A DNA stretch of 13,880 bases. Origin: Gammaproteobacteria bacterium. Lineage in GTDB: Bacteria > Pseudomonadota > Gammaproteobacteria > Arenicellales > JAOTYS01. The translations under genes and the position numbers were made by a program. The notes under the pieces were generated by a model. That model made no database searches. It saw only the letters and a program-made list of their open reading frames with translations, and was not told where the DNA came from. The stretch spans positions 1 through 13,880 of the forward strand of contig JAOTYS010000077.1 in assembly GCA_029861795.1 (NCBI GenBank), read 5' to 3'. This document shows, piece by piece, positions 5,488 to 11,349 of this stretch (position 1 is the first letter of the stretch; each line of letters starts with the position of its first letter).

Positions 5488-5985
5488 ATGAGAAAGTGGT
5501 ATCTGGTTTATTCTCGACCACGTCAAGAGCGCATAGCCATGGAGAACCTTGAGCGCCAGGGCTATGAAAGCTACCTACCCCTGATTAAGCGTCACCGCCG
5601 ACGTCAGGGCCGACGAGTTGTGCAAGTCGAGCCTATGTTTCCTCGATACCTGTTCATATGTCTTGATACGCAGACCGATAATTGGGCGCCGATCAGGTCC
5701 ACGAGAGGGGTGAATAGACTGGTACGGTTTGGCTTAGATCCGGCGGTGGTCCCGATGGACCTGCTAGAGATTTTGAAAGCCAGGGAGAACGAGGAGGGCG
5801 TACAGAATGTTTCGCCGGTGGACTTTAGACATGGTGATCGGGTGCGGATTAGCGAGGGGCCTTTAATGGGATATGAGGGCATTTTCCTGGCAAAATCTAG
5901 CCAAGAGCGGGTCACCATCTTGTTAAATGTCGTCAATAAACAGATGCGAATTAAGGCGAATCCCGCGCAGCTCGAAACTGCCTAG
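5488..5985 (+). CDS. rfaH: Transcription antitermination protein RfaH
   Basis: A NusG paralogue that binds RNA polymerase paused at ops elements, suppresses Rho-dependent termination in long envelope operons and, in E. coli, recruits ribosomes through its C-terminal domain. 165 residues (E. coli 162). N-terminal NGN domain about 1-100 with WYLVYSRPRQE, PMFPRYLFICL and STRGVNRLVRFG (71-82, close to the E. coli TRGVSHFVRFG). KOW-type C-terminal domain about 113-160 with GDRVRISEGPLMGYEG and ILLNVVNKQ, the part that switches fold in RfaH. These features favour RfaH over housekeeping NusG. An exact ops sequence lies at 6879-6890, so the likely target operon is immediately downstream. No clear Shine-Dalgarno precedes the ATG, and I see no terminator after the gene. 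Confidence 0.94.
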   Translation: MRKWYLVYSRPRQERIAMENLERQGYESYLPLIKRHRRRQGRRVVQVEPMFPRYLFICLDTQTDNWAPIRSTRGVNRLVRFGLDPAVVPMDLLEILKARENEEGVQNVSPVDFRHGDRVRISEGPLMGYEGIFLAKSSQERVTILLNVVNKQMRIKANPAQLETA

Positions 5986-6070: not shown

Positions 6071-6131
6071 TTAACTTACGGCTGTAACTCGTTTAAAACA
6101 TTAGCTTAACTGGATGAGAACCAGCTTGACT
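6071..6131 (+). repeat. Irregular TTAACT-like direct repeats upstream of the regulator gene
   Basis: TTAACT (6071), GTAACT (6084), TTAACT (6106) and TTGACT (6126) recur in the same orientation with offsets of 13, 22 and 20 bp. The last is also the candidate -35. They could be activator or response-regulator sites, but such short AT-rich words recur by chance. Confidence 0.25.
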
Positions 6132-6152
6132 TAATGGTTTGGCTCGTATAGT
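6126..6152 (+). promoter_or_regulatory. Candidate promoter of the winged-helix regulator gene
   Basis: TTGACT (6126-6131) and TATAGT (6147-6152) each match the consensus at 5/6, but the spacer is only 15 bp. The expected start falls at about 6159-6162, on or just before the GTG start codon at 6162, and there is no Shine-Dalgarno. The message may therefore be leaderless. Confidence 0.45.
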
Positions 6153-6170
6153 GTTCACACCGTGAACACT
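6150..6170. promoter_or_regulatory. Perfect 9+9 bp inverted repeat over the regulator start (likely autoregulatory operator)
   Basis: AGTGTTCAC (6150-6158) and GTGAACACT (6162-6170) are exact reverse complements separated by ACC. The left arm overlaps the -10 candidate, and the right arm begins with the GTG start codon of the regulator. Size, symmetry and position are those expected of an operator for a dimeric winged-helix protein. The same sequence could also fold as a hairpin hiding the start codon in RNA. Confidence 0.65.
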
Positions 6171-6812
6171 GATAGTTCTAAAGAAGATCGAATCACCCTC
6201 GAACTTCTTGACGCAATTGACCAACGCAGTGACGTTAGCCAACGACACTTAGCAAGGCAAATGGGGGTGGCCCTAGGACTTGCAAATTCTTATCTCAAGC
6301 GGTGCGTGCGCAAAGGCTTTGTAAAGATCAGTGAGGCCCCTGCGAACCGCTATGCCTACTACTTGACTCCCAAGGGTTTCGCCGAAAAATCTCGACTGAC
6401 CGCTCGTTATCTGTCGACCTCCTTAGCGTTTTACCGACAAGCTGGAAGATCATGTGATCGGATATTCGAGGCTTGCGTTCAGAAGGGCGTGAAGGAAGTG
6501 TTGTTATGTGGCCTTTCGGACCTCGCTGAAATCGCGCTGCTGCGTGCAATGGAGTCAAAGGTGGAGGTTGTCGGGTTATATGATCCGCGTCAGACGCAAA
6601 AGAAATTTTTCTCAAAAGTTATATGGAGCGAACTTGAACAAGTGAACGGATATGAGGCTTTCATGATTACGGAGTTGAGCGAGCCCGTCGCCATGTATGA
6701 GCGGCTCTCTGAGACGATCAGCCCTGACAGGTTGTTAGTACCCGATGTATTGAGATTGGGTGGTGAGTTGTCCACCCGTCACAAAGTGGCTCTCGAACAG
6801 AAGCTAGATTAG
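6162..6812 (+). CDS. Winged-helix (EPS-associated MarR-like) regulator with Rossmann-like C-terminal region
   Basis: 216 residues. Residues about 8-85 form a winged helix: SQRHLARQMGVALGLANSYL is the HTH, followed by KGFVKI and YAYYLTPKGFAEKSRLTARYL, wording I recognise from the EPS-associated MarR-type regulators beside exopolysaccharide loci. Residues about 110-165 look like a Rossmann beta-alpha-beta unit: KEVLLCGLSDLAEIALL, then VEVVGLYDP ending the second strand with an acidic residue. This resembles NAD- or nucleotide-binding folds, although the loop is GLSDLAE and not GxGxxG. Inference: a repressor or activator that senses a small ligand, possibly a nucleotide sugar or NAD(H). GTG is chosen because no other start lies near the N-terminal end of the HTH domain; it sits inside a perfect dyad. 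It is encoded between rfaH and the ops site, so the polysaccharide operon is the likely target. Ligand and sign of control are unknown. Confidence 0.8.
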   Translation: MNTDSSKEDRITLELLDAIDQRSDVSQRHLARQMGVALGLANSYLKRCVRKGFVKISEAPANRYAYYLTPKGFAEKSRLTARYLSTSLAFYRQAGRSCDRIFEACVQKGVKEVLLCGLSDLAEIALLRAMESKVEVVGLYDPRQTQKKFFSKVIWSELEQVNGYEAFMITELSEPVAMYERLSETISPDRLLVPDVLRLGGELSTRHKVALEQKLD

Positions 6813-6878
6813 TGCAGTAACAGCGACCGGAGCGGTCTTGTGATGAGCTGAGCTGTGCGGAACTTGAGTGTTCTGCAT

Positions 6879-6890
6879 GGCGGTAGCGTG
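6879..6890 (+). promoter_or_regulatory. ops element (RfaH recruitment site)
   Basis: GGCGGTAGCGTG is identical to the E. coli ops sequence, including the invariant GGTAG core. It lies in the 131-bp gap after the regulator and 53 nt before the TviB-like gene. ops acts in the non-template strand of a paused elongation complex to recruit RfaH, which is encoded at 5488-5985. The remaining JUMPstart sequence upstream is only loosely similar. I see no convincing separate promoter in this gap, so transcription may come from the regulator promoter. Confidence 0.9.
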
Positions 6891-6943: not shown

Positions 6944-8221
6944 ATGAAGATTGCTGTGATGGGACTTGGCTATGTGGGCATACAGCTGGCCGCGGCCCTC
7001 GGTCGTTGTTACGACACAGTGGGATTCGATCCTGATCGGAACAAGGTTAGGCATCTCAATACTGGATTTGATCCCACGGGCGAGATTCAGAAAGAAGAGC
7101 TGGAGTCGGCGGTCGAACTCCACTGCACCTCCGATGTTTCGGAGTTAGTTGGTAGAGATATCTATATTGTTGCGGTACCCACTCCTGTGGATAGTGCACG
7201 TCGTCCAGATTTTCAGGCACTGACGTCAGCTAGCCAAACGATAGCAGGGGCTATGACGCCCGGTGCTGTAGTGATATATGAATCGACCGTTTATCCCGGG
7301 GCCACAGAAGACATCTGTGTCCCGGTTTTAGAACGCCATTCCGGCCTGAAGTGGGGAAAGGATTTTCACGTGGGCTACTCTCCCGAACGCATTAATCCGG
7401 GCGACGCGCAGCATAAGTTGGCGAACATCGTTAAGCTAGTAGCCGCGGACGATGAATCTACTCTAGATATGATGGAACAAGTGTACGGTAAGATCGTGGA
7501 GGCGGGCGTATATCGAGTCTCGAGCATTAAAGTTGCTGAGGCGGCAAAGGTAATCGAAAACACTCAACGCGACATTAACATAGCGCTGATCAATGAACTG
7601 GCTCTTTTGTTCGAGCGGATGGGTATAGACACATCAGCGGTGATTGAGGCCGCTAGCACTAAATGGAATTTCCTACCTTTCAAACCAGGCCTTGTCGGCG
7701 GCCACTGCATAGGCGTTGACCCATATTATTTGACTTATAAGGCGGAGATGCTTGGCTACCACCCAGAGATCATTCTGGCAGGCCGTCGAATAAACGACGG
7801 TATGGGGAAATTTGTGGCTGAACAGACGATCAAGCAGATGATTCAGGCCGGTCAAATAATAAGCGATTGCAAAGTAAACGTATTAGGTCTGACGTTTAAG
7901 GAGGACTGCAAGGATATTAGGAATTCCCAGACTGCTTCAGTCGTAGAAGAGCTAAAGTCTTACGGTGTTGAAGTATGCGTACATGATCCGCTGGCGGACC
8001 CTGAAGAAGCGCGGGAAGAGTACGGCTTGAAGTTGTTTCGGTGGAACGAATTGCCGAAGGCTGAAGGTGTAGTGATGGCAGTACCCCATTCGCCTTTTAT
8101 GACAAAATCGGTGGACGAATACTTGGGTATACTTCGGACGAAAGGGGTGTTTGTGGACGTGAAGTCTGTTTTTGAACCGGCTGTGTTCGAGAAGGCAGGC
8201 ATGCGAGTGTGGCGACTTTAA
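6944..8221 (+). CDS. tviB: UDP-N-acetylhexosamine 6-dehydrogenase, TviB/WbpA/CapL type
   Basis: Oxidises a UDP-N-acetylhexosamine (UDP-GlcNAc or UDP-GalNAc in characterised TviB/WbpA enzymes) to the uronic acid using NAD+. 425 residues, standard length. Rossmann GLGYVG (7-12), VAVPTPVD (76-83), YESTVYPGATED (112-123), GYSPERINPGD (144-154), EAAKVIENTQRD (199-210, K202), and the catalytic C255 in GLVGGHCIGVDPYY. KWNFLPFKPG and YHPEIILAGRRIND are hallmarks of the Vi/O-antigen group and not of the UDP-ManNAc dehydrogenase WecC. It is the first gene after the ops element and has a weak AGGG ribosome site. Whether the substrate is the gluco or galacto epimer cannot be read from sequence alone, and the symbol is given by family only. 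Confidence 0.88.
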   Translation: MKIAVMGLGYVGIQLAAALGRCYDTVGFDPDRNKVRHLNTGFDPTGEIQKEELESAVELHCTSDVSELVGRDIYIVAVPTPVDSARRPDFQALTSASQTIAGAMTPGAVVIYESTVYPGATEDICVPVLERHSGLKWGKDFHVGYSPERINPGDAQHKLANIVKLVAADDESTLDMMEQVYGKIVEAGVYRVSSIKVAEAAKVIENTQRDINIALINELALLFERMGIDTSAVIEAASTKWNFLPFKPGLVGGHCIGVDPYYLTYKAEMLGYHPEIILAGRRINDGMGKFVAEQTIKQMIQAGQIISDCKVNVLGLTFKEDCKDIRNSQTASVVEELKSYGVEVCVHDPLADPEEAREEYGLKLFRWNELPKAEGVVMAVPHSPFMTKSVDEYLGILRTKGVFVDVKSVFEPAVFEKAGMRVWRL

Positions 8222-10466: not shown

Positions 10467-10479
10467 CTGCTTGCAGTGG

Positions 10480-10650
10480 TAATCGACGAACGGGTTTCGA
10501 TATCGTGTTCGGCCACCACCCCGACTCATCGCTTTTGCCCGTGACGGATTACACAACTGGTTAACGCAGCGATTTCGTTTGCGACAGGAATTGGGCATCG
10601 CACAAGAATGTATCGTAATTGGTCTAGTGACTCGTTTTCATCCTCTAAGC
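10480..10650 (+). pseudogene. Remnant A: hinge region of a GT4 glycosyltransferase
   Basis: No intact frame, but fragments in two frames follow the order of a GT4 (GT-B fold) enzyme. TGFDIVFG (10490-10513) resembles the NGFD...F motif at the start of the C-terminal domain. Then, after a frame change, RFRLRQELGIAQE and IVIGLVTRFHPL (10570-10647) resemble the family text RxxLRxELGI...VIGxVARFHPxKDH. Everything before and after this stretch of about 55 residues is missing. The N-terminal domain would have lain where gmd now ends, and the fragment stops exactly where remnant B begins. Assigned from remembered family patterns, without a database search. It is too short to say which sugar it transferred. 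Confidence 0.6.
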
Positions 10651-11339
10651 TAGTGATCTTAGGGTCATTGGCGGCGAGGTCACCGGGAATAAAAATGATA
10701 TTTTCAATGGTGCCGGGTCTTGGCTATGTATTCGGCAAAGGATGATTGCGAAGAACTCTACTTCGCGGCGTTGTATTGCAGCAGTATAAATTCGCTATGA
10801 AATGTAACGAGCGAATAACTTTTCAGAGCTAGCATGATCGAGACTTCTTTGTAAGTAGAGGATTTTTTGATCCGGCAAAAGACCGCTGTAATTATGGGTT
10901 CAGAAGTCGATACAGCTGAGTTTTTTCCTCAAAACGCTGCGATTAGAAAGGACGGTTTCTTGTTTGTGGCCAACGCTTTTTTTGGGGAAAAAAAGCACCC
11001 AGTAGTATGTAGATGCGGCAAGAATGCTGAAGAAGAAGTACCCACAAGCGATGTTTAAGATTTTGGATCCCATTGAGAAGGGTCCGTCATCCGTTTCTAT
11101 ATCGTCTTCACGCTTGGGAGCAAGAGGGGATTATCGAATATTTGACTGTCGCGAAACGGGGAAGGAATGAATGGATTCCTTGTGCCAATGAAGAATTCGA
11201 TTGCCCTGGCTGAAAGAACGGAGCTATTCCTACTGAATCCCAGTCTCGTGCACAGATGGGGGAACATTCAAGACGAGTAGCAACCGCACGGTATGATGTC
11301 CATGAAGCCAACAAAGTGATAAAAATGGCGTGCGCTTGA
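10647..11339 (+). pseudogene. Remnant B: decayed GT4 glycosyltransferase with frameshifts, stops and an internal deletion
   Basis: The pieces run in family order across all three frames. ILGSLAARSPG...MVPGLGYVFGKG, stop at 10743, then QYKFAMKCNERITFQ, stop at 10830, then HDRDFFVSRGFFDPAK (GT4: DDRDLFV.LGL). A frameshift in AAAA near 10876-10879 leads to KTAVIMGSEVDTAEFFP and FLFVANAFFGEKK. A further shift near 11000 gives YVDAARMLKKKYPQAMFKIL and PIEKGPSSVS. Then WEQEGIIEYL-like text passes directly into CRETGKE and NGFLVPMKNSIALAE, and finally RAQMGEHSRRVATARYDV ends at a TGA (11337-11339). About 45 residues that usually carry the REGxPRxLLEA EX7E motif are missing between EYL and CRET, and the first ~80 residues are absent. 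It resembles glycosyltransferases of O-antigen/capsule loci (PglA/RfbU-like family text). It cannot be functional as read. Confidence 0.75.
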
Positions 11340-11349
11340 TGTCCTCGTA

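Follow-up and report, generated by a model that had tools for sequence, protein, structure and literature searches.

The gene for a winged-helix regulator in the 13,880-nucleotide stretch of DNA analyzed here (the window) opens with a GTG codon that lies inside a perfect palindrome, directly behind a candidate promoter. This locus raises the question of whether one short sequence can serve as the operator, the transcription start, and the translation start of the same gene, as an earlier note on the sequence had proposed. The features that bear on this question are collected in Table 1.

The dyad and the start codon

The exact inverted arms described in the earlier note, 3 nt apart, are present (AGTGTTCAC at 6150-6158, ACC at 6159-6161, and GTGAACACT at 6162-6170), and the right arm does open with the GTG start at 6162. 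Among ATG, GTG, and TTG codons, this GTG alone gives a reading frame that includes the complete winged helix; the next possible in-frame start, an ATG, corresponds to residue 34. The left arm was said to touch the -10 candidate, and contact there is, but the word is too weak, for the AGT flank of the arm belongs to the -10 hexamer TATAGT, so that the two elements overlap.

The dyad sequence has one match in the window at up to three mismatches and none in 200 shuffles. An unspecified perfect 9-bp inverted repeat, taken alone, is not rare in the window: four distinct repeats with a loop of at most 10 were found (six counted), and the same class of repeat averaged 0.55 in 60 shuffles of the window, with at least one in 23 of the 60. 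Since such repeats are common in the window, a chance dyad was considered; it was ruled out by the orthologues. The weight of the dyad comes not from the 9-bp repeat itself but from the orthologues, which carry GTTCA-N5-TGAAC at the start.

Table 1. Features of the regulator locus in window coordinates (fused loci are those in which the operator core overlaps an in-frame start codon)
Feature	Position	Strand	Basis or remark
rfaH-like gene, NusG family antiterminator	5488..5985	+	TIGR01955 RfaH, 171.3 bits (cut-off 144.5)
-35-like hexamer TTGACT	6126..6131	+	Window sequence; TTGA.. 15-18 nt before the -10 position in 51/69 fused loci
-10 hexamer TATAGT, overlapping the left arm	6147..6152	+	Spans -15 to -10 of the GTG
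Perfect 9-3-9 dyad AGTGTTCAC-ACC-GTGAACACT	6150..6170	.	Window sequence
Conserved operator core GTTCA-N5-TGAAC, right half = start codon + codon 2	6153..6167	.	69/81 loci
Predicted transcription start zone, leader ~1-3 nt	6159..6161	+	Deduced from the gap between -10 and start
Regulator gene, GTG start, 216 aa: MarR_EPS-like winged helix + C-terminal Rossmann-like domain	6162..6812	+	
Rossmann-like C-terminal domain	~residues 106-199, 6477-6758	+	Predicted structure
RNA stem TGCGGAAC / GTTCTGCA, directly before ops	6856..6877	+	7-pair helix
ops element GGCGGTAGCGTG, RfaH recruitment site	6879..6890	+	Identical to ops12
First polysaccharide gene after ops, UDP-sugar dehydrogenase family	6944..8221	+	Pfam UDPG_MGDP_dh domains

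Conservation of the operator core

The alignment of orthologous upstream regions that the earlier note had put forward as a check was run on 81 loci, namely the window and 80 relatives (the best 80 of 164 confirmed in a scan of a genome collection); the rows are related, so the counts are not independent. One of the relatives, L056, comes from the cultured environmental bacterium Methylohalomonas lacus. The alignment bore the prediction out. The right half of GTTCA-N5-TGAAC lies in an in-frame start (RTG AAC) in 69 of the 81 loci, here called fused, with the last spacer base and TG forming ATG in 59 and GTG in 10, followed by AAC. An exact core is found at most 625 bp upstream of the start estimate in all 81 loci. 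What stands of the proposed palindrome is an operator site conserved in orthologues, in the form of this core of 5+5 bp rather than of the 9-bp arms: only the inner 5+5 bp are common to the 69 fused loci, conservation does not extend to the outer part of the right arm (codon 3 varies), and the sixth position lacks covariation, with C facing A in 21 of the 69 and A facing A in 10. Pairing stops before the sixth position, and the operator thus has just 10 specified bases, in half-sites that would lie about one helical turn apart. Further exact pairs of half-sites in the 80 loci have a spacing of 5 in 35 cases, while each of the other spacings from 0 to 12 accounts for 0-4.

As a guard against circularity, the start codon nearest the alignment start was chosen blind to the operator and the two halves were scored separately. 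Both the left half and AAC were present in 69 of the 81 loci, the left half only in none, AAC only in two, and neither in 10. Codon 2 is AAC in 69 of 69 loci with GTTCA versus two of 12 without it (Fisher p 3.5e-11, a value that is too small because the sequences are related and relatedness was left uncorrected). Elsewhere in the same genes asparagine is encoded by AAC 230 times and by AAT 291 times; because other asparagine codons are AAC in 230 of 521 cases, the AAC of codon 2 seems to be constrained at the DNA level.

The same pattern of conservation bears on a reading of the dyad as an RNA hairpin, acting in translation control or as an end signal for rfaH in transcripts from upstream. The RNA of the window does fold into a 10-bp hairpin that buries the GTG, but the folding is moderately above that of shuffles (z -1.85, with nine of 200 as good), orthologues share just 5+5 bp without covariation at the sixth position, and the distance between core and gene is not the same in all loci, as expected of a DNA operator. 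The hairpin was rejected on the 5+5 bp conservation and the moderate folding score, and its probability is put very low indeed.

Candidate promoter and predicted transcription start

The -35 and -10 hexamers of the window are separated by 15 nt, which is short for sigma70, and a consensus promoter scan that asks for a spacer of 16-18 nt did not list this promoter (TTGACT/TATAGT). The best sigma70 score before the regulator beats that of shuffled sequence (9.47 vs 7.73), and the hexamer adjoining the core in the 69 fused loci is TATAGT in 52, TATACT in seven, TATAAT in one, and another sequence in nine. TATANT occurs 63 times within 40 nt upstream of the 81 starts, and 60 of these occurrences end exactly 9 nt before the start. 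In the 59 loci that have TATANT and a sufficiently long upstream sequence, positions -24 to -16 are variable and no two loci share the same combination of spacer and loop, core invariance inside this subset being by selection.

The usual discriminator has a length of 6-8 nt; because of this length and the gap of 9 nt between the -10 and the start, a leader of about 1-3 nt is expected, and transcription would begin about 1-3 nt before the start codon. The leaderless start that had been claimed thus has comparative support as a near-leaderless one, not strictly without a leader, given that the -10 ends 9 nt before the GTG. The accompanying claim that there is no Shine-Dalgarno sequence agrees with the alignment, in which none of the 69 fused loci has a Shine-Dalgarno-like motif. 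A -10-like element about 10-12 bp before the start without a Shine-Dalgarno sequence, which is the criterion for leaderless genes in the available text of PMC3160421, is found in the window, where TATAGT spans -15 to -10. According to the same text, leaderless genes are uncommon in Gammaproteobacteria and were reported in 15 of 239 genomes.

Loci that depart from the fused arrangement

The fused site is absent from 12 of the 81 loci. The rfaH match ends 5-64 nt before the regulator in six of these (L015, L022, L029, L036, L039, and L041), and the nearest core lies 570-624 bp upstream of the regulator, before rfaH; L015 and L022 have a second copy further upstream. Fused loci, too, have rfaH as near as 55 nt, so the nearness of rfaH alone does not explain the position of the site. 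Among the others, the core of L065 lies at an in-frame ATG that precedes the alignment start by 15 codons; in L070 the core at the start carries a single mismatch, and an intact copy is present 144 bp upstream; L074 and L080 have two cores just upstream with the start further downstream; and in L032 and L058 a core is found some 130-160 bp upstream. In L080 (5975-5995), the ATGAAC of the operator begins a five-codon frame that ends in a TGA overlapping the regulator's ATG, an arrangement reminiscent of translational coupling.

Additional cores are present in several loci. A second exact core lies 30 bp upstream (31 in one), over the -35 region, in 13 of the 69 fused loci: L046, L047, L049, L052, L059, L060 (31 bp), L061, L063, L064, L069, L075, L078, and L079. 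This distance is about three helical turns. A further exact core is found about 143-154 bp upstream in L007, L008, L017, L023, L067, and L070, and it has its own TATANT in all of these except L023.

The second core with its own TATANT in five loci favors an arrangement in which the operator is real but the regulator is an activator, or in which the main transcript has a leader from an upstream promoter, and the sign of regulation is unreadable from sequence. The gap of 9 nt between the -10 and the start in 60 of 63 TATANT occurrences speaks against this arrangement, which is considered improbable. A core that immediately follows the -10 and covers the start codon is where a repressor, rather than an activator, would be expected to bind.

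The regulator and its family

The regulator matches Pfam HTH_24 with 33.2 bits and the MarR_EPS model TIGR04176 with 66.2 bits, which is below the equivalog cut-off of 88; it contains a homologous winged-helix domain and lies within an EPS gene cluster. The mean pLDDT of the AlphaFold2 model is 93.3 for the whole regulator and 94.4 for the C-terminal part alone, and the structural match to the MarR/PadR-like winged-helix fold covers approximately residues 1-95. A structure search with the C-terminal domain gave no match at E 0.001; the best was UDP-glucose dehydrogenase 3pid (E 1.1e-3, TMq 0.63), and the next were 2g6t (TMq 0.71) and WbaP 8t53 (TMq 0.70). The O-methyltransferases in the Foldseek list for the whole model have an rmsd of at least 11 and are uninformative. 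Sequence search for relatives with solved structures found none at E 0.01. The modeled Rossmann-like domain may sense a nucleotide or nucleotide-sugar.

Of 7999 candidates scored, 7783 proteins belong to the wider family at E 0.001. In the alignment of the full-length clade, the region of the predicted recognition helix contains many invariant residues. The N-termini of 10 of 36 aligned homologues (P0003, P0017, P0019, P0021, P0046, P0052, P0061, P0092, P0093, and P0101) read YSV[HQ]xxN, which is the promoter translated as protein; because of this, the start codons of these ten are probably annotated too far upstream.

The family resembles MarR_EPS in its related winged helix and its EPS setting, and all 80 members of set A2 match TIGR04176 at E 1e-5; unlike MarR_EPS, the window protein has 216 aa, an added Rossmann-like domain, and a score below the cut-off. 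Short relatives of the MarR_EPS type also have the exact core upstream, at varied distances, in 11 of 12 loci within the fetched stretch; the core of the twelfth is 1.15 kb upstream, before a preceding ORF. In contrast to the full-length loci, the core of the short relatives overlaps an in-frame ATG, GTG, or TTG start in none of the 12, and L150 has an in-frame CTG there.

Specificity of the site

A second sample consisted of 369 genomes of the same class, some of which are also among the 80 loci. A relative at E 1e-15 was found in 48, of which 37 have a full-length relative and 11 short ones only; in one of the 37 a short relative is present as well. The core lies in an in-frame start in 29 of the 37 full-length loci (the script counted 30, and L142, with an upstream TTG without a -10, was dropped as doubtful). 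The arrangement is absent in eight of the 37, L142 included, and an exact core is present at most 1.25 kb upstream in all 37.

The association of the site with the gene bears on the possibility that the site is the operator of another regulator that controls the whole cluster, the adjacent gene being merely one target. Room for this possibility comes from the fact that binding by the window regulator is deduced from the company that the site keeps, with the gene and with its short relatives. Several observations count against it. The composite TATANTGTTCAN5TGAAC occurs in 25 of the 37 genomes with a full-length relative, in one of the 11 with short ones only, and in two of 321 without a relative at E 1e-15, and the backward control of this pattern gave one match in the 369 genomes. 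The two composite sites in genomes without a relative lie inside a coding frame and before an endonuclease-like ORF (a symmetrical site), respectively. The strict form TGTTCAN5TGAACA, sought in 23 genomes, gave 17 sites in 13 genomes and none in 10 (backward control 0); 14 of the 17 are at the regulator start or at most 160 bp upstream, and the other three are in L177, in L179, and 4.7 kb upstream in the cluster of L043 itself. In the six loci in which the regulator follows rfaH unfused, the core sits before rfaH, and the full-length alignment shows many invariant residues in the stretch around the predicted recognition helix. Control by another regulator is therefore given little credence, and the fused site is most likely the control site of the regulator itself, recurring before most of the relatives examined.

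The composite site is present in 38 of 42 genomes, with 41 matches (backward control 0), of which 39 are regulator starts (one genome holds two) and two are tandem copies upstream. A wide regulon is unsupported at this stringency, because the composite and strict patterns fall almost only at the regulator; the genome-wide search used these patterns and not weaker sites. In L160 (1560-1720), from a genome without a relative, there are two GTTCA-N5-TGAAC sites, one of them inside the symmetrical TATAGTGTTCA...TGAACACTATA, and the ORF downstream resembles endonuclease I by eye.

Position before a polysaccharide operon

In 53 of the 80 loci, some of them truncated by contig ends, the regulator is preceded by an RfaH match, which is no more than 300 nt away in 43. 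The ops element of the window, which the earlier note does not mention, equals the ops12 oligo printed as GGCGGTAGCGTG in the available text of PMC5995543. GGCGGTAG[CT] follows the regulator stop by 44-344 nt (median 74) in 63 of the 81 loci and is absent there in 18; across the 80 loci, the plus strand carries this motif 64 times and the minus strand three times.

The stem before ops, which was defined after inspecting the same sequences, is paired in 89.2% of cells over 62 distinct sequences, versus at most 57.6% in slid controls, and 53 cells changed on both sides versus 17.7 in shuffles. Rfam JUMPstart (RF01707) matches 6866-6890 weakly (19.1 bits, E 0.47), short of the gathering score of 35. 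The locus therefore resembles RfaH/ops/JUMPstart RNA systems in its exact ops12 and the covarying stem before it, but its ops lies behind a regulator gene and the Rfam score is below gathering. About 13 nt separate the 3' foot of the stem from the end of ops, which is close to the spacing of a hairpin-stabilized pause. About 880 bp between polysaccharide genes (window 10467-11349) have no ORF of at least 80 aa.

A sigma70-like promoter was sought in the 110 bp before ops at 63 loci, and the best score was no better than that of shuffled sequence (7.38 vs 7.53); a separate promoter just before ops was thus not seen within 110 bp. Because ops and the polysaccharide genes follow the regulator without a promoter signal just before ops, the same switch probably sets EPS transcription. 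The scores before ops and before the regulator suggest, short of proof, that the promoter of the regulator is the head promoter of the EPS operon.

Proposed mode of control

Comparison of the loci establishes a fixed promoter-operator-start geometry that is tied to the regulator family and lacks a Shine-Dalgarno-like motif, and it lends support to each of the operator, the near-leaderless start, and autoregulation. Taken jointly, it is highly probable that a winged-helix repressor acting on GTTCA-N5-TGAAC controls its own near-leaderless promoter, with the head promoter of the EPS operon a probable further target. The fuller proposal is held with less assurance, as somewhat more likely than not: a clade-wide 21-bp element, TATAGT-GTTCA-N4-RTGAAC, would be -10, operator, transcription start, and start codon at once, would dictate residue 2 (Asn, AAC) of its own binder, and would head an RfaH/ops-gated EPS operon.

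In such a scheme, a sigma70-type promoter (TTGACT/TATAGT) would run straight into the operator, and because the promoter abuts the operator, RNA polymerase would start within about 3 bases of the GTG, giving a message nearly without a leader and without a Shine-Dalgarno sequence. Bound to the operator, a dimer of the regulator would occupy the DNA from the -10 to codon 2 and block the promoter, which would amount to negative autoregulation. Release, perhaps by a ligand in the C-terminal domain, would allow polymerase to transcribe the regulator gene and reach ops, at which point RfaH would join and make transcription of the EPS operon processive.

Relation to known systems and significance

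Leaderless autoregulated repressors are already known, for example lambda cI, TetR, and AcuR. A close parallel is acuR-acuI-dddL of Rhodobacter sphaeroides, in which, according to the available text of PMC3017554, a proteobacterial autoregulated repressor is the first gene of an operon, its mRNA begins at the AUG without a Shine-Dalgarno sequence, an inverted-repeat operator overlaps the promoter, and a similar arrangement exists in other bacteria. AcuR differs in being a TetR-family protein of a catabolic operon, and the same text places its operator, TAATAGAC-n6-GTCTATTA, upstream of acuR and overlapping the promoter and does not say that the start codon lies within it. CvkR of type V-K CRISPR-associated transposons (PMC9938897, in the text compared) likewise has a leaderless mRNA, a start annotated too far upstream, and a 15-nt palindromic motif; however, it is a MerR-type protein of cyanobacteria that represses cas12k and tnsB, and the text compared does not place the motif in the start codon of the regulator. 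Lambda cI and Tn1721 tetR (PMC9938897 and PMC3017554) and PY54 cI/cro (PMC4488713) are described in the portions of these papers compared as repressors made from leaderless mRNAs with operators nearby, but these are phage or transposon genes of other protein families. A mycobacterial SufR homologue is another leaderless autoregulated repressor in the available text of PMC6034842. The open-access literature searched (titles and the starts of abstracts) yielded neither a study of the operator of the present family nor an experimental study of the family. Searches of that literature turned up neither the operator of the family, nor a clade in which its right half is merged with the start codon and codon 2, nor its placement ahead of an operon under ops control.

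The comparison predicts an operator for this regulator family and flags start codons that are annotated too far upstream. Near-leaderless starts seem to be a conserved design tied to autoregulation in the regulator clade, which offers many natural replicates for asking why repressors favor leaderless mRNAs. The arrangement also points to a way in which EPS operons could combine two layers of control: if the proposal is true, a lock on initiation and a key for elongation (RfaH at ops) would act in series, and a DNA-binding site would dictate the second residue (Asn, AAC) of the protein that binds it.
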